Below, piece after piece: positions 1,660 to 63,914 of a stretch of 64,000 nucleotides of DNA. Origin of the DNA: Dimargaris cristalligena (taxonomy: Eukaryota > Kickxellomycota > Dimargaritomycetes > Dimargaritales > Dimargaritaceae); contig JANBQC010000042.1 in NCBI GenBank assembly GCA_027576995.1, positions 19,036-83,035 on the forward strand, in the 5' to 3' direction. A program made the translations under genes and the position numbers. Position 1 is the stretch's first letter. Each line of letters begins with the position of its first letter. The notes under the pieces are model-generated. The model was not told the origin of the DNA, did not search any database, and saw nothing but the letters and a program-made list of their open reading frames with translations.

Positions 1660-3399
1660 TTAAGGGTGTTCCATAGCCGGGGCCGCAAGGACGGCGTTAT
1701 CTTCTTCGGGCTTCATGGCGGGAAACAGGATGACTTCCTTGATATTGTTGGAGTCGGTCAGGAACATGGTGAGGCGGTCAATGCCCATACCCCAGCCACC
1801 CGTGGGTGGCAGACCGTATTCCAGAGCGGTACAGAAGCTCTCATCGACCATCTGGGCCTCGTCGTCACCGGCCGCCTTGTCGAGAGCCTGCTGTTCGAAA
1901 CGCGCACGCTGGACGAGGGGGTCGTTCAACTCGGTGTAGGCATTGCACACCTCCTTAGTGGCCACAAACAGCTCGAAACGTTCGCACAAGCCAGGCGCGG
2001 AGCGGTGCCACTTGGCCAGGGGGGACATCATCTGGGGATGGCAGGTAATAAAGGTGGGGCTGATGCACTCCACCTCCAGGTACTCGCCCACCAGTTTGTC
2101 GAGGAGCCGGGCGTTGGTGCGGGGAGCGGAGCACTCCACGTTGTTCTTGGCACACAGGTCAATCAGGAACTTGTTGGTTTCGTCGGTGTGGAGTTGATCG
2201 GGGGCGGGGAACTTGACATTGAGACGTTCTTCCAGACCTTCGATCATGTTGATGCGACGGAAGGGCGGGGAGAAGTCAATCTCTACGGGCTCGCTGCCGG
2301 GACCCTGGGGGTGGTAGGTAACCTTGTAGCCACCGGTCAGTTCCTTGACCATGCCGGACACCATTTGTTCGGTCATTTCCATAAGGTCAAACATATCGGC
2401 ATAGGCCATGTAGAACTCACAGGTGGTGAATTCGGGATTATGGGTCAAATCAATACCCTCGTTACGGAACTGACGGCCAATTTCGTACACCCGGTCCAGA
2501 CCACCCACGACGAGCATCTTCAGGTACAGCTCAGGGGCCACCCGCATAAATAGGTCCATCTTCAGGTCGTTGTGGTGGGTGACGAAGGGCTTGGCGGTGG
2601 CACCACCCGCAACCATATTCATCATGGGGGTCTCCACCTCCAAAAAGTCTTGACCATCGAGGTACTTGCGCACGTACGAGACAATCTTGGATCGCGTGGT
2701 GAACTTGTTGCGGACGTCGTTGTTCATGATCAGATCCAGGTAACGCTGACGGTAGCGGGATTCCTGGTCCTTGAAGCCGTAGTTCGACTTGGGCAGCATC
2801 CGCAAGCAAGGCGACAGCAGAGTGACATCGCGGGGGAAAATGGACAGCTCACCGCGCTTGGACTTACCCGGGTAACCCCGCACGCCGACGATATCCCCGC
2901 GACGGAGGATATCGTGAGTAGCGGCAAAGTCCCGCTGGGCGTCCTGGGCCTGGGCCATGATCTGCACCTTAACCCCTTCGCCATGAAGGTCATAGAAGCG
3001 CAGCTTAGCCCCGGAGGTCCGCTTGTTGTGGATGCGGCCCGACAAGGTCACTTCCTCTTCTACGTGTTCGCCCTCCTTCAGGTAGCCGAATTTCGCAATA
3101 AACGCCGGCAGCGACAGGGAAACGTGGAACTTGTGGGGGTAGGGCTGGGGACCTTGCTGGCGGAGCTTTTCGACGGCCCGGGTGCGGATCTCAAAGTACT
3201 GATTGGGGTTCAGGTCATCTTCGGCCTCCTCGGCACTCGCGGTTTTCTTTTCAGCAGCTGGCTTGGCCGCGGCCTTGGCGGCCTTTTCGGCCTCCTTGCG
3301 ACGGAGCTTCTCACGGCGCTTGAGCTCGGACTTGGAGATCATTTCACCGGTCACCTCATCCTTGTACAGCTTCTCGGTGGCAACTGGGGCATCGGCCAT
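1660..3399 (-). CDS. KRS1: Cytosolic lysyl-tRNA synthetase (class II)
   Basis: Charges tRNA-Lys with lysine in the cytosol. The 579-residue frame has the layout of eukaryotic LysRS. A Lys/Arg/Ala-rich N-terminal helix (about 24-52) gives non-specific tRNA binding. An OB-fold anticodon-binding domain follows (about 115-200, with [19 protein letters not shown]). Then comes the class II core: motif 1 near 240-262 ([10 protein letters not shown]), motif 2 near 303-332 ([22 protein letters not shown]) and motif 3 near 535-545 ([10 protein letters not shown]). The length matches yeast KRS1 (591). No mitochondrial presequence is visible, so a separate organellar enzyme or an alternative start elsewhere is needed. 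The start is the first Met of the frame. The frame has no introns. Identification is secure. Confidence 0.98.
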
Positions 3400-20540: not shown

Positions 20541-21947
20541 CTAGGTGACTTCGGGAAATTCCGCCGCATCCCAACGCCAGATCCGTACGCTGTTGTCTAG
20601 TGAACGCGTATTGCCTTCGTCGTCATCATCGTCATCATCATCCAGGGCCTCCCGTTGGCCCGAACAGGTGGCCATGAGAGGCAGAGTTGGGTGGAATTGG
20701 GTGGCACCTATAGCATCATGGTGGCCCGGAAATGATTGTACCAGGAGGGGATCCTTAGTGACCGGTTGGGCCTGGAGCGGTCCGCTAATATCGTAGATCT
20801 GAACCGTTCCTTCCCGGGTACCGCTAGCCAGAAATTGGCCCGTCGGATCCACGTCAAAACTAATGCGCTGACTTGTACCGAGCGTCCGATCAATACAAAA
20901 CAGGAACTTCCCCGTTTGGCGAATATCCCAGCAGAATACTGAGTAGTGGGTCCGACCGGTCAAATAGAGGTAATTGCCGCAGGGGGAGAACTGACATTGA
21001 CTCAGACCGTTGCCGATGGGCGGTCGTTTGAGATGGAGCAGGGCACCGGGGGCCGTGTCGGCGTAGAGGCCCACGGAATTGCTGAACGTGCCTACGGCGT
21101 AGAGCCCCGATCGGTCCGGATTAAAAGCTATGGTGGATACGATACCCTTCTGCCCGGCCTTACTGTTGCGGGTAGGGGTGAGGCGGACCGTTTGCCGGGC
21201 CATCCCCGGCCGCTGAACGTCGAAAATATGGATCGCGTCGTGGTAGCCGGTATATAATGATTGGCCGTCAGGGTGGAACGCCAGCGCATACGCCGCAATC
21301 TTCTGCCCCTTGTCATCTTCAGCCCAGTAGGTTGCCTGGACCTTGCCGGTGTAGGCATTCCATAGGTGAACCGGGTGATCACGGGTGGACGAGACAAAAC
21401 ACCAGGTGGACGGGTGGTAATAATCCACATGGGGGTACCAGTCCAGGGCGAGAATGCCATGGCTCTGTCGGAGGCATTGGAAGGCTTCGAGGGGCTCTGG
21501 TGAACCAGTAGCAGCGGCGGTAGTCAGCGTATCGGTGGGGAGCTGGAAGACCCGGGCGCACTGGTCATTGGAACTAGTCAAAAGAAATGAGCCATCGGGT
21601 GACCAGGTCGCCCTTTGGAAGAAGTTATTGTGCTGACCGCTATTTAAAGTGGGAAGGGGGGAGGAGGGGCTTCCGTCAGAATTGGGCAGTGAATGTTGTT
21701 GACCCGGGCGATTCGAAGGGGGATGGAGTCTTAGTCCCTCGGCCACGGTAGTATTGAACCGGGCGCCCGTCGAGGCGCTTAGAATGGGGCGGTCTCCAGT
21801 CGGAGAGTATAGTAGAGCTGGCCAAGGTACGGCTGACCATGGTAGGCCACTGGGCTGGTCATTGGGGTCAGAGCTCTCGAATGCGGGTGCGAGAGAACTT
21901 GGATCAGTAGGGGCGGAGTCGACTGCATTGGATTCCAGCGTTTCCAT
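20541..21947 (-). CDS. WRAP53: WRAP53/TCAB1-family WD40 protein
   Basis: A 468-residue beta-propeller of the telomerase Cajal body protein family, which binds the CAB box of H/ACA scaRNAs and telomerase RNA and brings them to their nuclear site of action. Family-specific segments are visible. The first blade has ATWSPDGSFLLTSSNDQCARVF. The STRDHPVHLWNAYTGKVQATY segment corresponds to human 'DNPIHIWDAFTG' with 'IRATYRAY'. Also present are GIVSTIAFNPDRSGLYAVGTFS, LYLTGRTHYSVFCWDIRQTG and QRISFDVDPTGQFLASGTREG. A near-C-terminal run of eight aspartates followed by Glu splits the last blade. The Met at 21947 is the first of the frame. The gene is divergent to the ASCC1-like gene. Yeast Swt21 is a remote relative, and the similarity here is closer to the animal protein. 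Confidence 0.93.
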   Translation of the reverse strand: METLESNAVDSAPTDPSSLAPAFESSDPNDQPSGLPWSAVPWPALLYSPTGDRPILSASTGARFNTTVAEGLRLHPPSNRPGQQHSLPNSDGSPSSPLPTLNSGQHNNFFQRATWSPDGSFLLTSSNDQCARVFQLPTDTLTTAAATGSPEPLEAFQCLRQSHGILALDWYPHVDYYHPSTWCFVSSTRDHPVHLWNAYTGKVQATYWAEDDKGQKIAAYALAFHPDGQSLYTGYHDAIHIFDVQRPGMARQTVRLTPTRNSKAGQKGIVSTIAFNPDRSGLYAVGTFSNSVGLYADTAPGALLHLKRPPIGNGLSQCQFSPCGNYLYLTGRTHYSVFCWDIRQTGKFLFCIDRTLGTSQRISFDVDPTGQFLASGTREGTVQIYDISGPLQAQPVTKDPLLVQSFPGHHDAIGATQFHPTLPLMATCSGQREALDDDDDDDDEGNTRSLDNSVRIWRWDAAEFPEVT

Positions 21948-38461: not shown

Positions 38462-41400
38462 TCATTCGGCCGACGATTTTTGGTCGTCGGCCTCGAAGTT
38501 GATTAGGGCATGAAGACTGTCGTCCTCGCTCAATTCGGGGAACAGTGAATCAGGGGCGCGGCTTCCATTGGTTGCCCCCGGGCCAACGGGCTCCCCCCGA
38601 TAGCCACCGCCCCGTTCACCGGCGCTGTAACTCTTCCGCCGGGAGGTGGGGGGCGATTCCGGGGCAGGGGAGTAAACATGGACCTCATCTAAATCCGAGG
38701 CCAGTTCATCCATCGACTCGTTCTCCGAGACGTGGGCCAAAAGGGATTCGGGCCGTCCGTTTTCGCCAGGGAGAGTGGGCCGGGAGGGAACTTGTTCGGA
38801 ATACAGGAAGGGGATGGGCCGGGGCTTATTCACAGCCAGAAAATCGTCGGACGCGGGGGAGACGGTAGCAATCTCGGGGGACAAGAGGGGCTCGACCGCC
38901 AATGGGTAACGGATATCCAGTACGCTATTCATAGCGTTGTGTAGGCGATCTTGGACCTGGTAGCTGTAGGGACTGTTGTCCCCGTCGCCGCGGTCCATGG
39001 ATGCCGTCCCATAGGGTCGAGGGGCGCCCCGTTTGAATTCCCATACCCGCACCTTCGGGAACCAGGGTTCGGTCGCCGGGGCCGGCGCTGGACTTCCGGA
39101 GAAGCGGGCCGTCGGGGTGGTGGGAGTCGGTGGGATAATGCACTGGAACTGGAATTGGCTCTGGGCCCAGAGGGGCTCCGGATTGATAAGGGGGCACGTA
39201 ACTAATTCCATATGGACCATCCAGTCGATAGCAGCTGACTGAGGGGCCGTCGTACTAGGTCCTGGGGCGGGATTTTTAGCGGGGGCCTGGCGGGGGGCCT
39301 TCCAAGGTAACGTCGCCCAGGTGGAATGCCGGATAACATCCCACTCGGCTAGGTCGTCGCGGTTCACGGCCAAGGTGTAGCGGGGGTGAAAAGCGGCGGC
39401 GTGCTTACCCTTTTGGGCTACACAGCTAGGGGTCAAGCGGTGCAGGGTTAGGGTAGCATTGGGGTGGAAGATCCACAGAAGGAGGGGCTGGATCAACTGC
39501 TTCACCCGGTGACGAGGGGTCACTGTAGAGGTTGGGTTACCGGTTCCGAATGAAGTGCTAGGGTAGTATTGGCCATGCAGAGTGGCATACCATTCCGCCC
39601 CCGCCGATGAGGGACCAAAGTAGGTGACCAGACTGCCTCGGATGGCCGGGGGGGACTGAGGGGGACGATGGCCCATGGCCGGGTAACCTATGGAATAGGG
39701 ATCCGTGGACGGCAGCTCCATGGGAAACACGCCGAGGTCCTCCGGGTAGTGCGGGTGGGAAGGAGGCCGGGGTAACGGGGAGGCGGGAGCCAATGGGGCC
39801 CGCTGTTTGATGCGGACCACCGCCGGAACACTGGTCAAACCGGATTTCCACACACTGCTACCGTTTGACAGGCTGTACCCGGCGTCAAGCGGAGAAAGGG
39901 AAGCGGCTGGGCCCAAATGGGCCGGGGCGTCGACCGGGCCGCCCTGGGGGTTGATAGGAAACACGTGGGTGGTACCTCGACTGGTACTGGCGGCCACCCA
40001 GTGGGCATCGGGACTGAACGAAATACTCTCGACCAGGGCGTCCGTGATACCCCGGGCAAGGCGGTACAGATGGCGAATACCCCGCACGGCATCGAATACG
40101 GCGGGGTGGTGACCCGGTCCGCCGGTGGCGAAGCCACGGTCATGACGGCCCAGTAGACTAAAGACATTAAGGGCATGCCCCTGGGTGGACACTGTCGCCA
40201 GTAGAGTCTGGCCGGGACTAAAAACTAAGCAATGGATAGGGTGGCGGTGGGCGACGAAATGGGCTACGGGGGCGGCCGTGACCAGCGGGGTGGAAGCAGA
40301 GTCTGTTGGTAAAGCGTCCAGGACCTCCTGCAGGTCATACACAATGACATTGCCCAGGTGTTCGTCGGGGTCCGAGACAGGAGGTGGCTTGACGGGACCA
40401 CCAGAGCGACCGGATCCGGCCAACGGAGGTGGGTACGTGAGGGACGGGGACTGCGTAGTGGATGGGGCGGGGGAAAAGTAGTTGGAGAGGGTCTTGTAAC
40501 CAAAACTGCCCAACACTTTGACGCCGTTGACCACATCCTTGGCCACCTTTTCGACGGCATGGCGGGACTGCGGAGTCCAGGCGGGGTCATCAATGGGAGT
40601 AAGCTTGACCTTGACGGGAGCTATTTGGCAAGTAGGAAAGGCCAGGAAGCGGGGACCCAAGGCAATTCGGGGGGAGGTGCTCACCTCGTCGGGGACTGGG
40701 GAAACGTGGTCGAACTGGGCCACCACTTCTTGGCGGGTGATATCAATAAGGTGCAGGGTACCATTATCCAGGGTCACCGCGATGAGGAGGTCATTATGGG
40801 TCATTTCAATGATGGTATGGGGGGCGAACGAAAATGAGTGAAGGAGGGTCTGTTGGGATAGGGAGAAAATAGATACGCAGTTGCCTACAGCAATTGGTCG
40901 GGAATAGCGGGTCGGGTTAGGGGACGGGGGTTCACTGTCGCCGCTGGGAGCAGCGGAGTGCACACAGGCAACCCAGGGCAGGCTAGCAAGCTGGACATCG
41001 TCTAATTTGGCTTGGCATTTGGGGGAAGGGCGCAAGTAGCGCATCGCCGTAACCCTTTCCACCACATCGCGCACGGAGATTATCTCACGGATATTGTCAA
41101 TGTCGGAAATATCCCACACCTGGAAACCGTCGGGGTAGCCCAAACATAGACAGGCCGCCAGGGATGAATTGAGGGCCAGGGGGTCCCGCGGCCAGGCTTC
41201 GAAGGCGGAGTACAGTACGGGGGCGGCGTCCCATTCGGGGGGTACTTCGCCTGGAGGGCCGTAGGCTAAAGACGGGGGCCGGGGCGGGCCGTAGGCCGAC
41301 GCAGGGTGGTAGGGCATGGGTGAGGTGGGCTGCATCGAGGCGGCATATAAGGGGCCAGCCGGTACACGAGGACCCGGTGGGGGGACGGCTTGAGGGGACG

Positions 41401-41853
41401 AGCCGGACCAGCGTCCCGGGCGGGCTATCGACGCCGGGAGGCTCTGGGCCACGCGGGAAGTGAGGTCCGACCATACCCAAGTGAGGGACTCGAGGGAAGA
41501 CGGCTCCCTAGAATAAGGCATGGTGGCAATGGTTAGAGTCGTACAGCCGGGGAGAAAGTGGAGGGGGGTTAATGCGGGGGGAAATTAGGAGCAGCGTACT
41601 CTACTTATAACAGAGGAGATGTGTGGTATAGGCCATGCATATAGTCAATTGCTCTAGAGAGCGGCCCTGGGCGTGGGCGCCTACCTCGCCAATAGTAGGG
41701 TCCAGAGGGGACACGAGTCACGGCCACCATCGAACGACAGGAATCTGGACCAATTAACGCAAAAAGGTGGCTGGGTGAGGGGGGGACTTACTTTAGAAAG
41801 ACAGGTTTGGCCCGACGGCCCCCCGAACTGCTACCAGACTGACCCTGGGACAT
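38462..41853 (-). CDS. BCAS3: BCAS3/Rudhira homologue, two exons
   Basis: A WD40 protein of the BCAS3 family, which in animals pairs with PHAF1/C16orf70 at the phagophore and binds phosphoinositides. Signature segments include LCLGYPDGFQVWDI (blade 1), PVAHFVAHRHPIHCLVFSPGQTLL and RHLYRLARGITDALVESISF, which leads into WVAASTSRGTTHVFPINPQGG. The C-terminal BCAS3 domain has PEPLWAQSQFQFQ, matching human RLWMGPQFQF. The best model has exon 1 at 41792-41853 (MSQGQSGSSSGGRRAKPVFL, 20 codons plus two bases, donor GTAAGT) and exon 2 at 38462-41507 (acceptor TTCTAG, branch-like CTAAC). The phases fit exactly and the join gives FLKEPSSLES, matching the conserved family start (VTEQSYMES). The spliced product is 1035 residues. 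An unspliced start at 41521 would add only MPYSR and is less likely. Confidence 0.93.
41508..41791 (-). other. Intron 1 of BCAS3 (inferred)
   Basis: 284 bases from GTAAGT (41791) to TTCTAG (41508). It has a CTAAC branch candidate and a long C/T tract just before the acceptor. It is phase 2. Confidence 0.75.
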
Positions 41854-42998: not shown

Positions 42999-44219
42999 CT
43001 AATGGCGACCTCCCTGGTTCTGGAACAGTTGCATGGCGGCCTGGGCGGCCTTTTGCGCAATTTCTGACTGTTCCTGTTCGTTGTTTTCCACCCCGCGCGC
43101 CTTGTTCTGGTTGAAGTACAGCTTCATAGCCTCCTTCATGGCCATGTCCATTAGGCCCGACTGGGAGTTGCCACCGCTACTACCACCACCGCTGCCGCCC
43201 TGGAACATTTTGAGGGCCTGCATGGCCGCCGCGCCGGCCAGCGCGTTCTGACCCATAGCCATAAGGCCACCGCCGCCGCTGTTGCTATTATTGTTATTGT
43301 TGTTGGACTGGTAGGCCTGCTGGTGGTACTGTCCCATTTGGTTGGTGTCCATGTTGGTCTTCTTGCCGCTGCCCATTACGTTGCTGATAATCTGATAAAC
43401 GGTCCCGAAAGGCCAGCATGGTCATAAAGGACATATAGAGATGCATTCATACATGAATCATTGGGGTGGATTAGAAATACATAACGATGCCTCTACATTA
43501 CCCTTACAGGCTATATCAGTCACGTGGACAGGCTCATCAAACACGGTCCCGAGTAAAACCACAGTCCTCGCACACCTATTTTAGTATACAGCTCATATAC
43601 TTACACTCGAGAAGAAATCCTGCTTCGGGGAAGGAGGTCGCTGTTGCTGCTGCTGCTGCTGTTTACCACCGCCCAAGAACTGCATGGCCATGTTCTGGCC
43701 CATAGCCATAAGCCCACCGCTGCTGCTATTGCTATTGTTGCTGCTGCTGTGATTGTTGTTGCTGTTGCCACCGCTTTGGCCATAACTACCCGAAGGGGGG
43801 TTACCACCACCGTAGCCACCTCCATGGTGGTTGCCCCCACCATAACCGCCCTGTTGTTGACCGTAACCACCATTACCACCGAACTGCTGTTGCTGCTGCT
43901 GGTCATAACCACCACCGCCCTGTTGGTTATAGTTACCGCCATAACCGCCCCCTTGGTTATAGTTTCCGCCGCCCATTTGGGGCTGCTGCTGTTGCTGTTG
44001 CTGTTGCTTGTTGCTATTCTTGCCGCCCATGAATTGACCAGCCATGGACAAAAGGGAACTCATGCCCGACCGGTCCTGGGAGTCACCATGGTCATCGTTA
44101 CCGTGGTTGTTGTTGCTGTTATTGTTGTAATTGCCCGAGCTACCACCACCGGTGTAGTCGTTGGCCGCACCGCCCTGGTAACCACCGCCGTAGTTATTGT
44201 TGTTGCCGTAGTTAGACAT
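42999..44219 (-). CDS. Beta-flanking-type protein with prion-like N/Q/G-rich N terminus, two exons
   Basis: Exon 1 (43605-44219) starts MSNYGNNNNYGGGYQ and is Gly/Asn/Gln-rich with several polyglutamine runs. It ends DFFSS at a GTAAGT donor. Exon 2 (42999-43391) follows a TTATCAG acceptor in the same phase and begins IISNVMGSGKKTNMD. The spliced protein is 335 residues. Exon 2 matches the fungal family annotated as beta-flanking protein: YHQQAYQS, then LAGAAAMQALKMFQGG, then NSQSGLMDMAMKEAMKLYF and an Ala-rich last helix (AQKAAQAAMQLF). The motif GGLMAMGQN occurs once in each exon within an Asn/Ser/Gly context, suggesting an internal duplication. The biochemical role of the family is unknown. 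The upstream in-frame Met (44276) would add 19 hydrophobic residues and is not favoured. Confidence 0.85.
43392..43604 (-). other. Intron of the beta-flanking-type gene (inferred)
   Basis: 213 bases, GTAAGTATATG donor and TTTATCAG acceptor, phase 0. Joining the exons restores a continuous family domain. Confidence 0.8.
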
Positions 44220-45750
44220 GGTCAAATACAAGAATTTTACAAATAAAAAACAGAGGGAGGGAGTAAAAGAGTACAAGTAAGGGATATAGACTCAAGGACG
44301 GATAAAAAACCAAGAAGAATAGGAAAAGGCAAGTGGAAAGAGAAGAAGAGAAAGAGGTAGTGTGAAATATGAATAGACGTGCAGGGTAGTTTTGTTCTCT
44401 CAAACAAATGCGGGGTGAAATAGTGGGAAGAGGGAAAAGCCAACGTGGTTGGAGAGAAGAGGGAGGGTGGTGTGGGAGTTAAGAGGAGGGCTGGTTGGCC
44501 AATTTTGGGAGGCGGCCAATGTAGCCGCAATGATGACCACGCAATTCGGTCGATAGAACCGCCGAATAACAATAAACGATGTTCCAGAAAAGAGGGGAAA
44601 CCGCCCACACCCACTCGCGCGAATACACAAAATTCGGGTTAGTGAAATCTCAATGACGCCCTATTTTAATCATGGAGGCAGAAGAGTTAACTGAATAATC
44701 GGGCAGTATAGACAGTATTAAAAGGTTCGTCATTACTCCGCACTCGACCTCCGTTTTTTCTTAAAGAGGCACCAGCCCGATATGCAGTATCTCATAGTTT
44801 AGCTACCCACCACCCCCATTTCCCACTCGCCAGTGTCCAAGTAAAATGTTACTTACTACTACCTACTACTCCTCCCCATGAACATTACCAAACCCTGGGG
44901 CCGCTCTACATGGGCGGCGTACCACTTTATCCAATCAGCCGAAATCCATATGTATATATAAATTGGCGGAGTGTCGATTCAATAAAGCGATACACACACA
45001 ACCCCGCCAGCAATACTTAAGAAACGTCGTTACTCGTGTATATGGTGGGAAAACCATTACCCTCTCTCCCCTCCCCACCCATGCAAATACTGGAAATGTG
45101 ACCAGCTAGTAGTGCCGTCTCCCTAACAAATGAAATGGTGCCAGTACCAGCTTTTCACACCCATGTGGTTAATGTACTTCACCCAACCTCAAAGTTTCCA
45201 TCCTTCTTCTCGGGTCCACGACCACACTCGGATCACCCTCCCCACCAATCCCAGCACCACCATATTCCACAATAGCAGCAGTTTACTACGCGGAGTTCCT
45301 AGCCCCACTCGACGCACTTTGCCTGGCATTGGGAGGTACCCAGCACGATCTATTTTTATTATACTTCTTACTTAGATTATCCCAACTATGTTGGTCAGCA
45401 GTAATCGAACCTCCCCTTTCTTCCATTAACCTACGGAAACGGGACAATCGTCCACCATAGACTTTTCCATCCACCTATCTTAATAAATGATTTTATCAAA
45501 ATACACAAATTTCTGTTTTGTATTCATGATCTCTTTGCTTGCAAATTCCAGTCGAATGGGGCAATAGATTAATCCTCCAGAGTGGTCAAATCACAACACC
45601 CCGCCCCCTCCTTCCCCGTGCAAATATACTACAAGTGTGGCAGACCAGCGTTAACGTATCAATAGGATTAAGTAAGCCAAATGAATTAAAGGTGGAGGGG
45701 AAGGGGGATATATGCCTATGGATCCACACTAGATGATACCATCTCGCATG
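44220..45750. other. Intergenic spacer, beta-flanking promoter and Trithorax-like 3' flank
   Basis: 1.5 kb. 44220-44470 is purine-rich on the plus strand, giving a CT-rich leader for the leftward gene. No supported coding frame is seen in 44500-45750. Confidence 0.5.
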
Positions 45751-48700
45751 CTAATCGTAAGCCAGCGTGAGTTCTTCATCCGCTTCAATATGCCGCACGG
45801 CACATAAAACTACATGGAGACTACCGTCGGCCAGGCACAGCGTCTTGGCGAATAGATTGGGCTTGGCACTGTGTTGGATATAGGCGCACGGAGATCGGAA
45901 CCCGCTGGCGTCCACAAACCAGTCGCGCGCCGCGCGGATCATGATGCAATTGGGATACCGCTGACCCGGTCGTCCCGGATCCGCCGCCGCCGAGGCACAA
46001 CTCGTGGGATACTCCGCCCCATCTACTCCCCCACCATTACTAGTATAATGTGGCGGGGTCAGCATGTTAAGGGAAGGTGTCGAACGACCGCCTCCTCCTC
46101 CTCCATTTCCCCCTCCCGCATTCATGGCTTGGCGTAGTCGACTCCCACTTCCCGCCGGTCTACCCGGCTTACCCGTGACACCGCCACCGCTATGGCCATT
46201 GGTGGACCGATCGTGGCTACCCCCTCCTGCCTTCACCCCTGCCGTTCCTTGAGTCCCACCCAGGATGGAGCGTACCGATTGCAGATACCGTTGCTGGCGG
46301 AGTCCTGCCTGGTGACTGCCCAGCCACTGTCCACGGAATTCCAGCACAATCGCGTTTTTCTCGAAACTCTGGTTGGTAAACAACCCCAGCGTCCGCTGCC
46401 GTGGCGGGGCGCTCGCCATCGAATGGGTCAAGTCGGCTTCCCAGAACCGATGGGCTGTTTCCGACCAATCGCTCAGCTGGGCTGATGTTTGCAGAGCGAC
46501 GTTAACTGCCGAGGCATCGTTATATGCCGCCGTCCGGGCTGAGCTCCCCCCGGCGGACCGGCCTCCTCCACTGCCACTACCATGGCTCGGCAAGTCGGCA
46601 GTAGGAGTTCGGATTGTCCCCACGACGCGGAAGAAGGCCCCTTCACCCGGATTACCAATCCGATTAATCACCGGCCCCACCCCGATGGGATCTGGGCTGG
46701 GCGCCAGAATCGCATCTTCGTCCCGCCGGTATCCAAACGTCCCGAATACAGTAAGGCGCAGCCGCCAGCCCTGTTTACCGCTGGGATCGGTTGGCGGTTC
46801 AGCTTCCAGAGCGTCGTCGAGTTCATCAAACGGGATAGGGACGGTGCGATCAATGGGGAACGGCGACATGGAGGGTCGACCCGCACCACCACCTCCACCC
46901 CCCTTGGAATCAGGGCTCGACGGCTCGGAGGGCGGGAAAAGGCATTTGGGGGCCATGGGGGCTTGGTTATGGGCCCGCTGGCGCGAGTTCGCCTGGTTTT
47001 GGGGGACATGGGCCCGATTGACAAAATACTGGTTATGAAAGAGGGCAACAGGTAGTCGGTGGGTGGGGGGCATAACTCGCTCGGATAAGGAGCCACCACC
47101 ACTCCCCGAGGCCGCCCACCACTTGGCCAACCATTTATGCAAACCTTCCGGATCATCGGTAAGCTGGGGGTCTAAATTTTCCAAGACCCGCTGGTAACAT
47201 TCGGAAGGTGCTAAAAACCAAGCGGGGGAGTGCGGGTTTTGTTCGCGCACAAATTCTTGGTAGGCAGCACTATCGTCCGCTGTAGGTTGAGTGGACGATG
47301 ACGTCATTGTAGACCGTGCATGATGGGGTTGCCGGTGGGCGCTCATATCCACACCCCCAAAGGCATTCACCGTGGTTGTTGCTCTCACCAGGTTGGGCAC
47401 ACGACGCCGGTAAATTAAATCGGTACGGGCGGCAACTTGGGTAGGATCGGGTAAGGGACTAGGGTGAACACCGATGGTGGGGGAAAGGGCGACTTCAGCG
47501 GCGCTTAATAAAGACTTTGGCAACAGCATCGGTCGAGGGACTATTTGGGAAGTCACGGTCATCACCGGGCCTTCACTAGTGATTTGATCACGTACCTGAC
47601 GCAGCACCGTATAAGGCTCGTTATTGACCGGGCTCTGGGGATCGAATCGCTCGCTCAGCGGCTTGAAACCCCACAGGGTATCCAACATCACTGATTGCAG
47701 CCGGTTATTCCGCAACCCGACAAATAGGGCCGGGTCCCGGTGGTATATGTACTGGTGGCGGACATGGGCCAAAAGATTGGCTAATTCCCCATGGACATAC
47801 CGAGAGAACAGCGCCGCCAGTGCGGATCCCAAGGTGGGGGCCCGGATAATACCGTTGGCCGACGGGTCATCCGTGATCCGGAGCTCCCACTGTGCTGCAA
47901 AGATGACCCGATCGAGAGGTAGACCAGTCATGTATTTACAGTGGGCAGGTACATCAGGAAATATAAACAGGGCATACCTGTCGCCTGCTGATGCCGGTGT
48001 GACTGCTGGTGTACCAGTCGGTGTAAAGGTGCTAGGATCCCGGGGGATGACCCGACAGTGCACAGTAGCATGGTGTTGCGGTCGAATATAACTCCAGAAT
48101 TGACGCTGACAGCTAAACCCAAGCGGGGCGATGAATTCCGGGAAATCGTCAGTAACTGTAACCGAAGTGGGTGGAGGTAGGCCTGGCTCACCTGGCACTG
48201 TTCGTAATTGTCCCAACGACTCGATGGTCAGGGCCCCGATACGCCAATTGGGTGGTAAGAGAGATACCGCCGGTCCAGGCGCTGGTGATTCAGTTACCGC
48301 CATTGCCGCCACTTCTTCCGCGATCTTCGGTAGTGCCGGCAGGGGTGTCCGCCCCGGGGCAGTCATACCACCGTTGGGACTGGTACTGGAGTGAGCATGC
48401 GATATCGTTGGGGTGTTACGAGTGACGGCCCAGGGTTTGGATTGGAGATACTCGGCGGGGCCTGGGTCAGCCCCAGTGCCCGCGAGGGTAATCTGGGCCG
48501 CCTGGGCTGATTCACGGGCGAACAGCGCATGGTGGGTCGTGGTATGTACATGGCAGAGCAGGCAGCGCAAATCATGGTATAGCGTTGGCCGGTTTTCGGG
48601 GGAACACATTTGGAAGGGGCGGGAAAAAAGGCACGAGATGTGGTACGAAGTGCTGCAGTGGGCACCCGCCGCGCATTTGACGGTAGCCCCGACCCGGGTA

Positions 48701-51700
48701 CACAGTTGGCAGTAGGACTGCTGGGCGCGAACCAAAGCAGGCTCGATGCCATCCACTTCATACTTGTCATTAATATGGATATCGGGGAGCCACAACAGAC
48801 AGTCGATGTGGGCATAGGCATTGGGATAGGTTTTCGAGTAAAGGTAGAGGAGGCGACCAGTCCCCATGCGGTGGGCGGAATGGGCCGGGGAATCCGCACC
48901 TGAGCCAGCGGTAGAGTGCGTCGGGGTTAGGGCGAGTTTGGGCAGACTGACTAGGGACGACATTTCTTTGCCGTGACATAGCACACACTTAATTGGGTTC
49001 GCCTCCCCCACGGGGGTGGAAGAAAGAGGTGGAGATGCTAAAACTGCAGCGATTGACGGACGACGAGTTACGGGGGTTGTCCTCGGTGAAGAGACGACCG
49101 CCGAACTAATCATGGGGGATGGTATCGGGACAACTGATGGCGGAGGAAGCGACGGAGGGGCGGGGGATTGCTGGGCAGGAGGTGTGGCCAACATTGGTCT
49201 CTCGGGGGCCGGGGACGGAGTGGAATGGGCTGATGCAGGCGGAACCGACACGGACGGGGATGGACTAGGCTCGGCACTGAATAAAGTCAGGAGGACCTCA
49301 GCGGCGTCTACCACCGAAGCATGGCAGGGCGGGGGGCCACCAACCGGGTTAATGATGGGATTGTTGGTATTGTTAATGCTGCTACACCCTACTCCCACTG
49401 TGCTATGCCGGGCCATCGCACTGGAATGGGGTATGCCGTTGGTAGCCGAGACCGGAAGTCCGCTAGAGGGTCGAGTCCGGCCCGATCCAGCGAAGGAGCT
49501 TGAAATTGGGGTGTGGCCAGCGGATAACGAAGGGGGGATGGGTCCACCACCTCCCATAGAAAGCGAACCGATTTTCGCTCCACGGGCAGGGTGGGCCGGA
49601 TGGGCGGCCGCCAGCAGCAAATCACAGAGACCCGGTGTCCGGGGGCTATCACCATTATCCAGGGAGCCCACCCGTCGTATCCGAGTAGCAGCGGTCCCTT
49701 CCGCTATTGAGGATGGTGGATGGGTCAGACCCAGGTCATAAAGCGGATGGATATCTAATTCGAAATTGAAACAGGAAATGCCCTCAAGTACGGCAGACAT
49801 CCCCGGTGAACCGCCTAAGGAATTAGAGCCAGTAGCGGGCAGTGACTTGGGTGAGGATCGCATCTCAACTGATAAAGTGGCGTTGGTGGCGCCGGACCCG
49901 GTCGATTTTGCGGAGGCCCCACGCCCCGTTTTAGGTGACAGCTGGTCACGCAGTTCGTGCCGGAAACTGGCCCGCAGACCCCCAATCGCAGCCACCCACA
50001 CCCGTTCGCGCTCAAAGGCCACCGGTAGCGTCCAGAACATCGTTTCCTCCTGCTCCTTACGACAAATGGGGCAGAAATACTGGGAGTCTTCGTCTTCCAC
50101 CAATCTCTGGTACCGCTCGGGGGTCAGATAGGCATCACAGTTAGAGTGAACCCAGTGACTGCACGTATCGCATGCGATCATGGGGGTCTCGTAATCGTCA
50201 TCCCGGTACACGCTTTGGCAGAGGGGGCATAGATTACCCTTCTCCAGTAGTTTTCCACACGGGCCGCATAGGGAGTAATCGAACGACCAGTAGGCCTTAC
50301 CATCGGGCGGCACGGGTTCAGGCCCGTTGGGGTCCCGGGATCCGCACTCATGGCAGCGGGCGCAGTCGGGACAGACCCAGCGCCGATACTGCTGTACGGC
50401 CTCTAGGGCAATGGGGGGTAAACATGGCACGTGGGTTAGCTGAGGGCAGTGATCGCATTGCAGAAGTTGCCCTGCAGGCTCGCGTTGATGACATGTCATA
50501 CACGACGCACAATTAGCACACTGTTTGGACCCTAGGTCCGGTAGTTTACGGGCCGCTGCGGGGGGAGGGGCGATATGGGGAACCAAGGGATGGGCGGAGG
50601 AGGGAACATCATGTCCCGCACAAGTGGCATGGTAGTCCTCTCCGCAATATTTACAATGAAAAAGGTTGGGGAATTGGGTGGCCGCTGAACTGGCCGGGTT
50701 AGAACCCCGGGAATGTGCACCCGCTGAATGGGCCGAGCGGGCGGGCCCAGCTGCTGGGATACCTAGACCACAGGTCGTACAAGTCCTATCACAGTTTAGT
50801 TTCGAATCAAGGCTGGTTTCGGTCCGGCACACATAATCCGACGGACTTGGTAATGCGCGGCGTGAATAGGGGAGGAAAATACTAGTCGGGCCCGGTTGCG
50901 ACTCTGGGTTCTTTAAATACTGAGTCACCTGGGCTCGGCGTAGTAGGGGAAAAGCCCAGGGAACCCCCCGGGTGGAGCGCCGGTAATCCAGCCAAGCGTA
51001 TATGCGCATATTCAGTTTTTTCCGGCGCTTGTTACGAAGTTTTTGGGCGAGGGAGCGTTTGGCCATCTCAGCTGGATTGGTGCTGTCGAGCGGTTCAAGC
51101 ATGATGGGCTCGTCGATGGGACTTAGTTTAATTGGTGGAGGCCAGCCCCCTAAGGGCCGTTCCAGGGCTGGGGGGAACTTAGGGTGCCGGGTGTATTTCC
51201 GTTTGGCTGGTGGGCGGATTTCCGGGGGAGTAGGAACGGAGGCCGCAATGGCTCCGGGGATATTGGCGGGGGAAGAAGGGCCAGTGGACGGCACAGAGGG
51301 TGACCGGTGGAAGTCGGAAGGCTCCGACGACCCATCAGCCGCCTTGCGATTCTTAATGCCAGTGGAGGGGGTATCGGGACGCAACTTGCGCTTACGGGAG
51401 TCCCCCAAAAAATGACGCAACGGGAGGTTAGCCATGGCTGGGTTTCCGCTCGTCATGGCCAAGTATTTTTGACGAAGCACGTCTAGCGGAACTTCGAGGT
51501 GCTGGGCCGGGCCAACTTCGGTATCGCAGGCCACCTGAATTTTGACCGAGGACCAACCGTTCACCGCCACGCGGCCGTGGCGACCCATTTTGCAGACGGC
51601 AGTCGCCCAGGCACTGGGGGTTTCGTATTCGGGTTGCATTTCCTGAGAGAGGGGTTCGGTAGGGTTCGGCTGAAGCTTCCCAGCTGGAGTAACGATTGCC

Positions 51701-52050
51701 GTGTGGTTGCGGAAACTTACGCTGGAATGGGGCCGGAGCAAGCCGGATGTAACGAGATTGAGAAGACATACGCGATTGTTGTGATTACCCCCTACACCCT
51801 GGTTGAAATTAGCGGCCGAGCCCCCTGAAGCGGCTTTGGACATGGGCGACTTCTTTGTATGGTTGACGGGACGAGGCTTAGGGGCAGTGGGGGTACTGGG
51901 TATTGATAGGTTGGTGGAGTTGGGTCGTGTTTCCGCCCTGGGCCCGTCTGTGGATTGGGCCATTCGAGCGGCATTGAATTGGCCGTTCGGGAGGGACGGT
52001 GAAGTCGGGGGGCTGGAATCGGGCAGCTGTGCCGCAACGAGCAGGTCCAT
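45751..52050 (-). CDS. Trithorax/KMT2-like protein: RAMA - PHD x3 - extended PHD - FYRN/FYRC - divergent SET
   Basis: A single 2099-codon frame. Domains in order: (1) residues 94-196, a RAMA-like domain (VCLLNLVTSGLLRP, VTPAGKL, ETPSAWATAV, VNGWSSVKI, VLRQKYL). (2) About 460-665, a cluster of Cys/His zinc modules like MLL PHD1-3 (FHCKYCGEDYHATC, QCDHCPQLTHVPC, ACDTCSHWVHSNC, FCPICR). (3) About 1020-1170, an extended PHD (IKCVLCHGKEM, HIDCLLWLPD, YCQLCTRVGATVKC, YHISCLF, CLLCHVH). (4) About 1303-1335, FYRN (PLGFSCQRQFWSY). (5) About 1405-1445, FYRC-like (LLAHVRHQYIYHRDP). (6) About 1888-2099, SET (GLFTNQSFEKNAIVLEFRGQ; AYIQHSAKPNL; EELTLAYD at the stop). The family methylates H3K4 in nuclear COMPASS-like complexes. 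Here the usual N-H-S-C is Q-H-S-A and there is no post-SET cysteine cluster, so activity is uncertain. Usual fungal Set1 lacks these PHD/FYR modules. Confidence 0.9.
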   Translation of the reverse strand: MDLLVAAQLPDSSPPTSPSLPNGQFNAARMAQSTDGPRAETRPNSTNLSIPSTPTAPKPRPVNHTKKSPMSKAASGGSAANFNQGVGGNHNNRVCLLNLVTSGLLRPHSSVSFRNHTAIVTPAGKLQPNPTEPLSQEMQPEYETPSAWATAVCKMGRHGRVAVNGWSSVKIQVACDTEVGPAQHLEVPLDVLRQKYLAMTSGNPAMANLPLRHFLGDSRKRKLRPDTPSTGIKNRKAADGSSEPSDFHRSPSVPSTGPSSPANIPGAIAASVPTPPEIRPPAKRKYTRHPKFPPALERPLGGWPPPIKLSPIDEPIMLEPLDSTNPAEMAKRSLAQKLRNKRRKKLNMRIYAWLDYRRSTRGVPWAFPLLRRAQVTQYLKNPESQPGPTSIFLPYSRRALPSPSDYVCRTETSLDSKLNCDRTCTTCGLGIPAAGPARSAHSAGAHSRGSNPASSAATQFPNLFHCKYCGEDYHATCAGHDVPSSAHPLVPHIAPPPAAARKLPDLGSKQCANCASCMTCHQREPAGQLLQCDHCPQLTHVPCLPPIALEAVQQYRRWVCPDCARCHECGSRDPNGPEPVPPDGKAYWSFDYSLCGPCGKLLEKGNLCPLCQSVYRDDDYETPMIACDTCSHWVHSNCDAYLTPERYQRLVEDEDSQYFCPICRKEQEETMFWTLPVAFERERVWVAAIGGLRASFRHELRDQLSPKTGRGASAKSTGSGATNATLSVEMRSSPKSLPATGSNSLGGSPGMSAVLEGISCFNFELDIHPLYDLGLTHPPSSIAEGTAATRIRRVGSLDNGDSPRTPGLCDLLLAAAHPAHPARGAKIGSLSMGGGGPIPPSLSAGHTPISSSFAGSGRTRPSSGLPVSATNGIPHSSAMARHSTVGVGCSSINNTNNPIINPVGGPPPCHASVVDAAEVLLTLFSAEPSPSPSVSVPPASAHSTPSPAPERPMLATPPAQQSPAPPSLPPPSVVPIPSPMISSAVVSSPRTTPVTRRPSIAAVLASPPLSSTPVGEANPIKCVLCHGKEMSSLVSLPKLALTPTHSTAGSGADSPAHSAHRMGTGRLLYLYSKTYPNAYAHIDCLLWLPDIHINDKYEVDGIEPALVRAQQSYCQLCTRVGATVKCAAGAHCSTSYHISCLFSRPFQMCSPENRPTLYHDLRCLLCHVHTTTHHALFARESAQAAQITLAGTGADPGPAEYLQSKPWAVTRNTPTISHAHSSTSPNGGMTAPGRTPLPALPKIAEEVAAMAVTESPAPGPAVSLLPPNWRIGALTIESLGQLRTVPGEPGLPPPTSVTVTDDFPEFIAPLGFSCQRQFWSYIRPQHHATVHCRVIPRDPSTFTPTGTPAVTPASAGDRYALFIFPDVPAHCKYMTGLPLDRVIFAAQWELRITDDPSANGIIRAPTLGSALAALFSRYVHGELANLLAHVRHQYIYHRDPALFVGLRNNRLQSVMLDTLWGFKPLSERFDPQSPVNNEPYTVLRQVRDQITSEGPVMTVTSQIVPRPMLLPKSLLSAAEVALSPTIGVHPSPLPDPTQVAARTDLIYRRRVPNLVRATTTVNAFGGVDMSAHRQPHHARSTMTSSSTQPTADDSAAYQEFVREQNPHSPAWFLAPSECYQRVLENLDPQLTDDPEGLHKWLAKWWAASGSGGGSLSERVMPPTHRLPVALFHNQYFVNRAHVPQNQANSRQRAHNQAPMAPKCLFPPSEPSSPDSKGGGGGGAGRPSMSPFPIDRTVPIPFDELDDALEAEPPTDPSGKQGWRLRLTVFGTFGYRRDEDAILAPSPDPIGVGPVINRIGNPGEGAFFRVVGTIRTPTADLPSHGSGSGGGRSAGGSSARTAAYNDASAVNVALQTSAQLSDWSETAHRFWEADLTHSMASAPPRQRTLGLFTNQSFEKNAIVLEFRGQWLGSHQAGLRQQRYLQSVRSILGGTQGTAGVKAGGGSHDRSTNGHSGGGVTGKPGRPAGSGSRLRQAMNAGGGNGGGGGGRSTPSLNMLTPPHYTSNGGGVDGAEYPTSCASAAADPGRPGQRYPNCIMIRAARDWFVDASGFRSPCAYIQHSAKPNLFAKTLCLADGSLHVVLCAVRHIEADEELTLAYD
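51465..51771 (-). other. Segment encoding the RAMA-like domain
   Basis: Residues 94-196 of the Trithorax-like protein. Hallmarks of the RAMA fold are in order: a 'L-x-x-L-x-x-x-G-L-L' opening helix, a G-K strand, an S-P-S-A-like segment (here T-P-S-A-W-A), the N-G-W signature (VNGWSSVKI), and a closing 'L-R-x-x-Y-L' helix. The domain was first defined in DNA adenine methylase and restriction systems. Confidence 0.7.
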
Positions 52051-54929: not shown

Positions 54930-57900
54930 TCATTCGAGGTCCTTTGGCGAGTCCTGTTTAGATGATGGCTCAGAAGGAGCCGGGGACTCGACCACGGCCT
55001 GGGCAGGTTCAAGGGATGCTTCGGGAAGGGGCAGTGCCTCGGATTCAGTGACCGACAATGAATTTGATTCGGCTGGTTGGCCGGTCGAAGTAGGCACGGC
55101 ATCAGCGTCTTCCCCTTCTTCATCACCGACTGGCTTGGGCACTAATTGGAGATCGGGAACGACTTGGTTAAGTTCGTTTGAGGAGTCGGTAGGAGCTTCG
55201 CCGACTAGCTCACCTTCGGTGCCGGGTAAGATCAGCGACGCTAAGGGCAGGTTGTCGTCATTCTCCTCGTGGTCTACCTCCAAATCCGACGACTCGGGGG
55301 AAAGCGAAGGGGTCGTGATAATCGACAGAGAACCGTCCGAGTCGAGGCTGGTCAGCGCCGTGGTGACAGTCCGGCTAGGACCACCATTGCCAAGCAGAAT
55401 TTCCTCATCGTCGTCGTCGATAAATGTAGTAGTGAATTGGCGGCGTTGGCGAAAAACATTGGCTTGCTGATCTCCAGTCTGGCCCGGGTTCATGGGACCG
55501 GGTCGGGCAGTACGAGGAGTTTCGGAGTTGGCGTTTCCATTGGCGGCAGGGTTGGCATTGGCGTTCGCGTTGGGTCGGTTGAACCGCCGGTTATTCATGT
55601 CAGCCGCCATATTATTATTATTATTATTATTATGGCCAAATCGATTTTGTCGTACGTACATCATCCAACCCACCAGAGCACACAGGCCAAAAATAACCAA
55701 ATTCTCTAACCAGGTATCCTCGTTCAACTCCAGCTCATGGTCCTGACCCAGTCGACCGGTTCGGAATTCGGCCTCGTCATTATCGCGTTCAAAACCGCCC
55801 ATGGGATCATCGAGTCCGGCGCGGTGGATATACTCCTGGCGCTGCTGTCGACGGTGGGCCTCCATTTCTTCAATAACCTGATCATTGGGATAATACCCGC
55901 GTTGGGGATCGATGTAGCCGAAGGGGTTACGCCAGCCGAGTGGTTGGTCGTCCACCGGCGGGAATCCCACTGGGTTAACCAGCGTGGTGGACGCTTCTCC
56001 ACCACCCGGTGTACGGTCGGGGACTCCCTGGGCGGGCGGTTGCTGAGCCTGGCCCCCCTGGGCGACCTCCCTATCGTCTTCGATGTCGTGGTTCGGGGGT
56101 AGGCCCGTATACCCTCCTTCGCCCGCCTGATCCTCCGCTCCGTCCGAGCCGAAGAAGAGCGAACGCGTTCCGACATCCTCCCCGCGAATCCACGCCCAGT
56201 AGTACTTAACCGCCAGTTGGATGATGGAGAGGGTTACCGGGAATGACCCCCTGGGATAGGTTAGAGCGGCCCGCTCGTAGCAGCGCAGGGCCATGTGGAA
56301 ATCGCGAGGTACCCCCAAACCGTTTTCGTGCATCCAGCCCAGGTTCCACATGGCGATGGGATTCTGGCTGTTCTCCGCGGCTAATTGGTAAGAATAAACC
56401 GCCTTAGCCATATCCTGCTCTGTGCCCCGGCCATAGAAGTAGTAATCCCCCGCCTTGATGCGCGCTTCCACGGTACCCTGGTTAGCCGCTCGGGTCCAGG
56501 CCGAAAGCGCCAGTTGGTCGGCGTAGCGATTCAGGATCGGGCCGTGCGCCTCCACCTCCGTCGCCTTCTCAATAAGCCAGGCCAGATTGGCCTGCGCTAC
56601 CTCGAACCCCATCTCAGCCGCCAGCGAATAGCGTACCAGTGAGTTGGTTAGGTCGCCCATGTCGAAGGGCTGGCGGGACTGGGTAAGGGGGGTGTACTGC
56701 CGGTTGGCCAGCTCCACCACCTTCTTCAGCAGGGGTACCGCATTTTCACAGGAGGCAGGAGTACCTCGGCCATGCTGGTACAGTTTAGCCAGGTGGTACA
56801 TGGCCAAGACGTGGTTGTAACGAGCCGCGATGCTGAGATGCTTGAAGGCGGAGTCATACATCTTGAGTTCCTTGAAGCGCAGGCCGATGTAAGCGAACGC
56901 ATCCACGTCCCCGCGCAGGGCACCCTCGTTAAACCATTTAAGCGCAGTTTCCTTGTTTTTGGTTACAATGGTACCATCCCGATAGAAGAGGCCCAACCAG
57001 GTCATGCTACCCGGGCTGGCCCGCTCGGCTCCCCGCTGGAACCAGTAGTAGGCCGTTTCGTTACTGGGACGGACCCCTTCCCCTCGCACGTACATTTGGC
57101 CCAGTAGGCCGGCGGCGATGCCGGCGTATATATCCTCGGGTTCGATTTCGCGGTTTAGTTCCTGGAAGAAACTCTCGGGCCAGGCCTGGGTTCCGGTGGG
57201 GGGTGCGTTGGGGTTCGGGTAGTGGGGCCCGCTGTAGGCCTTGGGGTTAATGACGCTCATCTCATTGAGAATGGAGCGTAGGTACTTGATGGTCAGGCGG
57301 AAGTTGGGTTCGGTCGAGTGGGTGCCCGTGTAGTAAATCTGGGCTAAAGTCAGCTCCGCCTTGATGTCACCACGGTCAGCCATGTAGCGGTAGTACTCCA
57401 GAACGTCGGCCAAGACGCTGGGATCACGCGGCTGTTTTTCCTGCTCATCCACCCGGATCCCGTATACCCCTCGGTCAATATCGGATAAGCGCTGGAACTC
57501 CAGGGGTAGCTTACGCCCACCCGGAGGGCCGTCTAACATATCCTCTACTGCTTTCCGGGCGGCGAACATGTAGTTGGTAAGGGCCACGTCGCAGTTGGTG
57601 GGGGAGCCCGTACCGGAGTAGTAGCGGTAGGCGACCGTCAGTTTGGCGGGTAAATGGCCCTGGAGGGAGGCGAACGTGTAGTATAGAACGGCTTTGCTGG
57701 AGCTACGCTGCGGGGGGTTATCCACCGTGTATGGGAAGCGATGGACCTTAACCGTGGCGCTGCTTTCAGTGGTTTTCACTTCAGGGGTAGGTACAGGCGC
57801 GGTCACGGGGGGCACGTAGTCCGAACTCTGCCAAACGGCAGTGTCAAATCCGAAACCGGTTGCGTAGAACCAGCCCACCATGTACTGTGCAGTGGGTTGA

Positions 57901-59406
57901 CCCTGTTCATCAGCCAGCCTGTGGTAGAACCGGAAAGCCCGATCAAAGCGGTGGGGGATACTATACTCCCCGTAGAGATAGATGTGGGCCAGGGTGAACA
58001 ATGCGCTGGTGTACGAGCGTTCATCCCCTAGGTAGTGAAGCATCCGGAGGGCTTCGCTTACCAATGGCTGGATAACGGGGGGCTCTTCCAAGTCGGGCCG
58101 ATCAAGGGCGTAGGGAGACACGTAGGCATCCAGTTGAGGGTCCCGTTCGCTTAGGCGAGTCTTCGGGGGTTTGGACCGGGACGGCTGGCCCCAGCGGGGT
58201 TGATCGGACTGTTGCCAGATATACTGCTGGATATAATCCCGGACAGTGTCGGTTAGGGGCATTACAGTGGACAAATACATTTGGCGGAGAGTCAGTCGTA
58301 TAGACTTGGGTAGCATAATAAGATACGACAGTGAATCAGAATCGACCCCGTGTGCGGATTGGTAGGCAGGGCTGGCCTGCTTGTCAAACTTGTCCAAAAT
58401 TGACATGGCCTCGGTGTAAATTTCTGTGAAATACGTACATGGTTCCAGGAATGCAATGAACATATTCCCCCCAAAAATCAATGGTTAGTAAATGCAAATG
58501 TAAATTCGATTCGAATCGGGGGTGTTACACTCCAGTTGGAAATACTATGACCGGGATGCTATATTTAGCCAGCCATTGATCAACACAGCCTGCTGGTTTT
58601 AACTTGCGATGGCACTAAATTTAGTTGACGGGCTAGGTGATAATTTAATGAATACCTTCTGATGATAATCGAGGGACGGTGTCTTCGGAAAATGAATCTA
58701 CAGACTGGAGTGGGGTGCGAGTAAACGAGACCAATGGGGTGCAGATACAAGTTGTAATTAATGAGTAACTCAATAAATGAACGACGGAGATATCCCTGCA
58801 TAATCAAAGAAAGCCATGACATTGCAATGAAATTAAGAGTGGAATAGCAGGGGGAATCGGAAATTTAGTTATGCCTATAAGGCGGATCTAGGTATGGTTA
58901 ATACAAGCAGTCTATTTTACCTTGGCTTGCTCCGCCGTAGACTGGGGGATGGCACCCTGCTCCTCCGCCGCCGAACATACGGGCTGCCATGTGGTCAAGG
59001 CAACGGATAGAGCGAGGAATACTGGTGGTGTCACAGCCGATTTGACGCATTAAAATACACATGTTAGAATGGCAGTAGTGGATTTAGCAACCGGTCAGTC
59101 TAAATGAATGCTCGTCTCAGACGTTCGGGACAAACGAGTTCTTAAGTCCACACTTCAACAGGTTGGGAAATAGGGAGATGGAGTAGGTGAGCCCTGACCA
59201 ATTCACTCGGCTTCTGAGCATCGCGAGTGAAACTACGCACTGCCAAGAAAGGGGGTAAACTATTTACACAATAAGCCTGAATGAGCTCGCTTCGCGGGAA
59301 TACACTGCATAGCTGTCTATGTTAGTGGGCTTGAAGCATCTGGCAAATGCCACTTGGCATGTTGTGCGCTAAACTTACCAGCCGCATGGTAACGATGAAA
59401 GCGCAT
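54930..59406 (-). CDS. HRD3: HRD3/SEL1L homologue: Sel1-repeat ER-associated degradation factor, three exons inferred
   Basis: ER-lumenal substrate receptor and partner of the Hrd1 ubiquitin ligase. The main exon (54930-58409) encodes a long array of Sel1 repeats (for example AMYHLAKLYQHGRGTPASC, AMWNLGWMHENGLGVPRDFH), one transmembrane helix near residues 942-960 (LVIFGLCALVGWMMYV), an Asn run and a Ser/Pro/acidic tail. The frame has no signal peptide of its own. Two upstream exons supply one. Exon 1 at 59379-59406 (MRFHRYHAA, donor GTAAGT) joins in phase 1 to exon 2 at 58921-59021 (VFLALSVALTTWQPVCSAAE, ending EQAK at donor GTAAAA). This joins in phase 0 to GCC at 58409. The product is 1202 residues. 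The first join is well supported. The last acceptor (CGAG) is less certain because an out-of-phase CACAG lies 14 bases before it. Confidence 0.9.
55612..55635. repeat. (ATT)n trinucleotide run in HRD3
   Basis: Seven or more ATT units on the plus strand encode an asparagine run just after the HRD3 transmembrane helix. It is a possible length polymorphism in the cytosolic linker. Confidence 0.85.
58410..58920 (-). other. Intron 2 of HRD3 (inferred)
   Basis: GTAAAA donor at 58920. A TTTACTAACC branch-like sequence lies near 58490. The acceptor CACCGAG is at 58410. Stop codons in all frames between the signal exon and the main exon require removal. An alternative acceptor CACAG at 58424 has the wrong phase for the signal-peptide frame. 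Confidence 0.5.
59022..59378 (-). other. Intron 1 of HRD3 (inferred)
   Basis: GTAAGT donor at 59378 and CACCACCAG acceptor at 59022, with a TTCTAAC branch candidate about 50 bases upstream of the acceptor. Phase 1; the join completes a Val codon. Confidence 0.65.
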
Positions 59407-63842: not shown

Positions 63843-63914
63843 CTCTCCAACAGGGAATTGAACCCTGGTCTTCCGCGTGACAGGCGGAGATACTCACCAC
63901 TATACTATTGAAGA
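63843..63914 (-). tRNA. tRNA-Asp (GUC)
   Basis: The minus strand folds into a complete 72-base cloverleaf without an intron. Acceptor TCTTCAA pairs with TTGGAGA (one G-T) and is followed by discriminator G. D arm and internal A box TAGTATAGTGGTGAGTA. Anticodon stem TCCGC/GCGGA with loop CTGTCAC, so anticodon GTC. T stem CAGGG/CCCTG with B box GGTTCAATTCC. This is the standard eukaryotic tRNA-Asp sequence. Confidence 0.97.

Follow-up and report, generated by a model that had tools for sequence, protein, structure and literature searches.

A RAMA domain joined to a Trithorax-type PHD/FYRN/SET protein in Dimargaris cristalligena and related fungi: a predicted chromatin reader with a degenerate SET region

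A stretch of 64,000 nucleotides of Dimargaris cristalligena DNA (GCA_027576995.1, contig JANBQC010000042.1, positions 19,036 to 83,035), analysed as a whole and called here the window, carries on its minus strand a gene for a protein of 2099 amino acids (aa) in which a RAMA domain precedes a PHD/FYRN/SET body of the MLL/Trithorax type. The gene is a single open reading frame (ORF) with an ATG start and a TAG stop, and the fusion of the two parts in one uninterrupted frame, recognised in an original prediction made from the letters of the window, was upheld. The protein is probably a non-catalytic chromatin reader and scaffold of the Trithorax/KMT2 type, not a writer. Its N-terminal RAMA domain would grip double-stranded DNA through the backbone, as suggested by the fold and the conserved contact residues; its third PHD finger, with an intact MLL1-type cage, would read histone H3 trimethylated at lysine 4 (H3K4me3); the FYR and Win-like parts would hold partner proteins; and the SET fold would persist as a structural remnant only, since the cofactor-binding motif and the post-SET segment are gone. 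Promoter chromatin would be bound through DNA and H3K4me3 jointly, with the protein serving as a scaffold.

Along the protein the Pfam matches follow one another as RAMA (residues 89-171), PHD (best match 517-563), extended PHD (1073-1169), FYRN (1305-1335) and SET (1888-2098). The MLL proteins have the order PHD cluster, extended PHD, FYRN, Win motif and SET, and the window protein follows it, with a FYRN match just below the cut-off and a Win-like motif. The PHD cluster with an extended PHD, which marks the KMT2/Trithorax group, is present, and the matches of the third PHD finger and of the SET region are of the type found in KMT2A/KMT2B (MLL1/MLL2) and Trithorax. Unlike these proteins, the window protein has RAMA in the place of CXXC, its SET is degenerate and lacks post-SET, and neither CXXC (even at E≤10) nor FYRC nor a bromodomain was matched in Pfam. 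Because RAMA is placed where KMT2A/B carry CXXC, it would do the job of that domain; in human KMT2A, the addition of CXXC to the PHD fingers is reported to raise promoter preference (PMC9813062). RAMA may direct the protein to promoters through DNA, in addition to the PHD cluster, in organisms whose active genes bear N6-methyladenine (6mA) at their starts.

RAMA proteins and MLL proteins are each known, and so are readers with an inactive SET. Yeast Set3 and MLL5/SETD5 combine a finger reading methylated H3K4 with an inactive SET used as a scaffold; they have a single PHD, neither RAMA nor FYR, and a SET of another subfamily. Unlike the window protein, the bacterial adenine methylase CcrM has its C-terminal RAMA joined to a DNA methylase, and the animal protein MPND, as described in PMC9963953, has an MPN domain and no PHD, FYR or SET. 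The RAMA-PHD-FYR-SET combination was not found in the literature searched, to which the founding RAMA survey did not belong, and some proteins of the family described below are already annotated in databases with RAMA, PHD and SET.

RAMA domain, PHD fingers and spread of the family

The RAMA domain that the original prediction placed at the N-terminus was confirmed by profile and by fold comparison, the fold being that of the RAMA domains of CcrM and MPND. Against the curated cut-off of 35.2 bits, the Pfam profile (PF18755) remained below it with 24.8 bits (E 2.2e-5) over the full-length protein and 31.3 bits (E 2e-7) on the cut-out domain, where it was the sole family matched at E≤10. Besides the window protein, a search of the 27 Mb genome that ignored introns gave no RAMA match at E≤0.001.

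A search with the RAMA region at E≤0.01 returned Dimargaritales proteins only, five of them, from Dispira simplex, Dispira parvispora, Tieghemiomyces parasiticus, Dimargaris verticillata and D. xerosporica. These orthologues are 45-47% identical to the window protein over the full length and 72-78% over the RAMA region. An alignment search extended the set to 34 proteins at E≤1e-3, namely the 5 from Dimargaritales, 7 from Kickxellales (Mycoemilia and Coemansia), 21 from Mortierellomycota, and P0013; together with the window protein they make up the 35 proteins referred to below, lineages having been looked up for three species. This search favours RAMA-bearing proteins, because its words were taken from the first 500 residues. 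It gave no match in Mucoromycota, which are rich in 6mA. A survey of 62 fungi (PMC11258239) places Mortierellomycota and Kickxellomycota among its phyla richest in 6mA (0.8-3.8%), and the architecture, which the original prediction had proposed to seek in other fungi, is thus shared by two phyla with high reported 6mA. In a tree of PHD2-3 (28 of the 35 proteins; midpoint root, long branches), the five Kickxellales rows formed a supported group, as did the 16 Mortierellomycota rows together with P0013, while the six Dimargaritales were not resolved between these groups. The tree is compatible with common descent and is no test of it.

Within Dimargaritales the RAMA region is the best-kept part of the protein: mean pairwise identity is 0.78 over residues 89-200 vs 0.42 over the whole protein, and residues 141-170, which are invariant, are its best-conserved 30-residue stretch. 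Pfam RAMA was matched in all six Dimargaritales proteins at E≤1, and PF18755.7 is present in the precomputed annotation of three of the five orthologues. The alignment puts T144, S146 and W166, with a Ser-to-Thr change at the first, in the presumed places of S113, S115 and W135 of MPND, whose alanine mutants almost lost DNA binding (PMC9963953). All 35 proteins carry the TPSA(W/F)AT motif, followed at constant spacing by NGW in 28 of them. A profile built from the family itself matched RAMA in every one of the 35 proteins, always ahead of the PHD2-3 match, and on cut-out segments Pfam RAMA was matched in 14 of 14 cases at E≤10 (10 from outside Dimargaritales; best 2.3e-9).

Among the PHD fingers, PHD3 has MLL1 PHD3 as its best match in the Protein Data Bank (PDB), with E 4.9e-13. 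The H3K4me3 cage of MLL1 consists of Tyr1576, Tyr1581, Met1585 and Trp1594 (PMC8022399), and all four residues are retained in the window protein as Y615, Y620, M624 and W633. From this intact cage PHD3 is a candidate H3K4me3 reader. The full cage pattern occurs in 26 of the 35 proteins; outside Kickxellales it was missed in P0027, in which the matched stretch begins inside the finger, and in P0034, where no match to the finger was obtained. It is also worth mentioning that the phmmer alignment to the PHD3-Bromo structure of MLL1 (3lqh) extends beyond PHD3 to residue 749 (residues 671-749, window 49804-50040), where a degenerate bromodomain is possible.

SET region and putative partner-binding parts

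The original prediction had the protein marking H3K4, and this was not supported, because its SET lacks both the Asn that binds S-adenosylmethionine (AdoMet) and the post-SET, and a canonical Set1 is encoded elsewhere. In the alignment, RFINHSCEPNC of MLL1 is replaced by AYIQHSAKPNL, and EELTYDY by EELTLAY, after which the stop follows at once. The Cys of PNC is a zinc ligand together with post-SET. Counted along the alignment, with N3906 placed by counting as the N of NHS, MLL1 N3906 corresponds to Q2059 and Y3942 to L2096. QHS..PNL, with Gln at the cofactor-Asn position, is common to all six Dimargaritales proteins, all of which end without post-SET, and no plausible post-SET exon was seen within the next 2 kb past the stop of the window gene. 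None of 13 further aligned SETs has NHS..PN, and the cofactor-Asn column in them is without Asn.

Neither NHS..PN nor the post-SET pattern was found in any of the 35 proteins; both were found in the organism's own Set1, which served as a positive control and is intact, with N-SET, NHCCQPNC, EEITYDY and post-SET. The N-terminal SET segment is present in 22 of the 35, among them P0016 and P0021 from partial records, and was not seen in the other 13, including all seven Kickxellales, some other gene models being short. N3906 of MLL1 is needed for AdoMet binding, and N3906A kills SET activity while the core complex still assembles (PMC3887211); MLL3 N4848S, at the matching position, is inactive as well (PMC4379744). 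We infer that the SET of the window protein is without catalytic activity.

As to the FYR region, which had been predicted as FYRN plus FYRC, FYRN scored 23.0 bits against a curated cut-off of 24 and was matched in five of the six Dimargaritales proteins at E≤1; FYRC gave no profile match in the window protein. Further downstream, the Win-like AARTDL occurs in all six Dimargaritales proteins and as SCARTE in P0013; in 15 of the 21 Mortierellomycota proteins the site reads AAR(V/A)R, with the acid missing, and none was found in the seven Kickxellales. Additionally, a linker motif containing VDAAEVLLTLFSAEPSP shows strong conservation among Dimargaritales and can still be recognised in Mortierellomycota, with a profile match in 18 of the 35 proteins; it looks like a partner-binding peptide.

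Link to 6mA and alternative readings

The proposed link of the source organism to 6mA gained support from its genome, in which six MT-A70 stretches were found. One of them is a relative of AMT1/MTA1 (E 4.7e-72 to 7f4r, an MTA1-type chain, vs 1.4e-34 to METTL3) and another of MTA9 (E 4e-15); predicted 6mA-writing machinery, with AMT1- and MTA9-type adenine methyltransferase subunits, is thus encoded. In PMC12695648, robust 6mA was reported for no species lacking AMT1; where present, it lay downstream of transcription starts, between nucleosomes marked by H3K4me3. Tentatively, the proteins may form an ancient family of zygomycete-grade fungi in which a 6mA-preferring RAMA replaces the CpG-reading CXXC, the H3K4me3-reading PHD3 is kept and catalysis has been given up, so as to make a two-mark reader of the pattern of 6mA linkers and H3K4me3 nucleosomes at the starts of active genes. 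Its least certain step is the preference of RAMA for 6mA, which we consider doubtful. The family would also be a case of a KMT2-type protein converted from writer to reader. It is a concrete, conserved candidate with predicted DNA-binding and H3K4me3-reading parts in phyla reported as 6mA-rich, and the question of 6mA reading can be reduced to two domains and short oligonucleotides. Apart from the MT-A70 genes, a cytosine DNA methylase-type ORF of 1588 aa is present in the genome (G000 C448:15146-16957), and therefore machinery for both 5-methylcytosine and 6mA may exist.

Several results weigh against a non-catalytic reader and scaffold as described above. On whole proteins, Pfam RAMA at E≤0.1 was matched in 15 of the 29 more distant relatives and missed in 14. 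In the seven Kickxellales (P0025, P0028, P0030-P0033, P0035) an insertion separates the TPSAWAT helix from the RVAVNGWTAC strand, and PHD3 is without its second cage Tyr; both features reflect either true divergence or, in part, gene-model error. In the SET alignment, P0008, P0009 and P0011 have an Asn one position later, and P0010 has its QHS one position later. MLL3 Y4884C and MLL1 Y3942F stay active with an altered product (PMC4379744, PMC3887211), and the case for a dead SET rests on the Asn and post-SET, since the loss of Y3942 alone would not abolish activity. N3906A MLL1 together with its partner subunits kept some H3K4 methylation in vitro (PMC3887211), and therefore a complex could retain activity. 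Finally, the crystal structure of MPND RAMA and the mobility-shift (EMSA) and microscale thermophoresis (MST) assays reported with it indicate DNA binding irrespective of 6mA or sequence (PMC9963953).

The MPND results favour a variant of the reader-and-scaffold reading, compatible with it, in which RAMA is a general grip on double-stranded DNA or nucleosomes with no preference for 6mA, and the protein is an H3K4me3 reader to which DNA contact only adds affinity. MPND RAMA touches the DNA backbone only, treats methylated and plain DNA alike and binds histones too (PMC9963953), and the contact residues conserved in the family are those backbone contacts. On the other hand, the family occurs in phyla reported as 6mA-rich (PMC11258239), a relative of AMT1 is encoded in the source genome, and an earlier pull-down, as cited in PMC9963953, gave MPND a preference for 6mA; the correlation with phyla is incomplete because the 6mA-rich Mucoromycota yielded no match. 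We regard this variant as quite plausible, somewhat short of an even chance.

Two further readings give the SET region a larger part. That the protein methylates H3K4 as an active enzyme and is recruited through 6mA, as originally predicted, is very improbable: the SET and FYRN profiles still match, the Win-like motif is conserved in Dimargaritales, and the residual activity of the dead MLL1 variant with its partners (PMC3887211) speaks for it, but the cofactor Asn, the PNC Cys and post-SET are lost in all six Dimargaritales, the NHS..PN/post-SET pattern is missing from all 35 proteins (22 with the N-terminal SET segment), and an intact Set1 exists elsewhere. The pseudo-SET and the Win-like motif could instead act as a decoy or antagonist, competing with Set1 for COMPASS subunits and limiting H3K4 methylation at bound genes. 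This is unlikely, if less so than an active enzyme. In its favour are the AARTDL of all six Dimargaritales, the conservation of the C-terminal SET part among them (mean identity 0.72) despite the lost cofactor motif, and the core complex still assembled by MLL1 N3906A (PMC3887211); as a family-wide role it is made unlikely by the loss of the Win acid in the 15 Mortierellomycota that have the site and by the seven Kickxellales, in which neither a Win site nor a SET was found.

Features and neighbouring genes of the window

Table 1. Positions, in window coordinates, of the parts of the RAMA-PHD-SET gene and of neighbouring genes.
Feature	Window position	Strand	Remarks
Whole ORF, 2099 aa	45751..52050	-	RAMA / PHD cluster / extended PHD / FYRN / Win-like motif / degenerate SET
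RAMA domain, residues 91-203	51442..51780	-	
RAMA core, residues 140-171	51538..51633	-	predicted DNA-backbone contacts T144, S146, W166; alignment to MPND
PHD1-like zinc-binding segment, residues 420-482	50605..50793	-	weakly conserved; alignment, weak Pfam matches only
PHD2, residues 510-565	50356..50523	-	Pfam PHD 517-563
PHD3, residues 600-670	50041..50253	-	candidate cage residues Y615, Y620, M624, W633; best PDB match MLL1 PHD3
Conserved short linker motif with VDAAEVLLTLFSAEPSP, residues 911-935	49246..49320	-	alignment and profile matches
Extended PHD (HC5HC2H type), residues 1018-1170	48541..48999	-	Pfam PF13771/PF13832
FYRN, residues 1305-1335	48046..48138	-	23.0 bits
FYRC-like stretch, residues 1385-1420	47791..47898	-	by eye only
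Win-like motif AARTDLIYRRR, residues 1536-1556	47383..47445	-	conservation; putative function
SET N-terminal part, residues 1885-1925	46276..46398	-	degenerate; Pfam, alignment
SET C-terminal part, residues 2030-2098	45757..45963	-	QHSAKPNL for NHS..PNC, ELTLAY for ELTYDY; immediate stop
Class II tRNA synthetase (D/K/N type)	1660-3399		
WD40 protein	20541-21947		
BCAS3-like WD40 protein	38462-41521		
Sel1-repeat protein	54930-58481	-	
tRNA-Asp	63843-63914	-	

No functional link between the RAMA-PHD-SET gene and the five neighbours listed in Table 1 was seen in the window. An uninterrupted ORF of 3947 aa on the minus strand (window 4874-16717) gave only weak ankyrin and PH matches. The RAMA-PHD-SET gene is adjoined by a Gly/Asn/Gln-rich frame of 232 aa with runs of Q (window 43593-44291, minus strand), whose opposite strand is also open.

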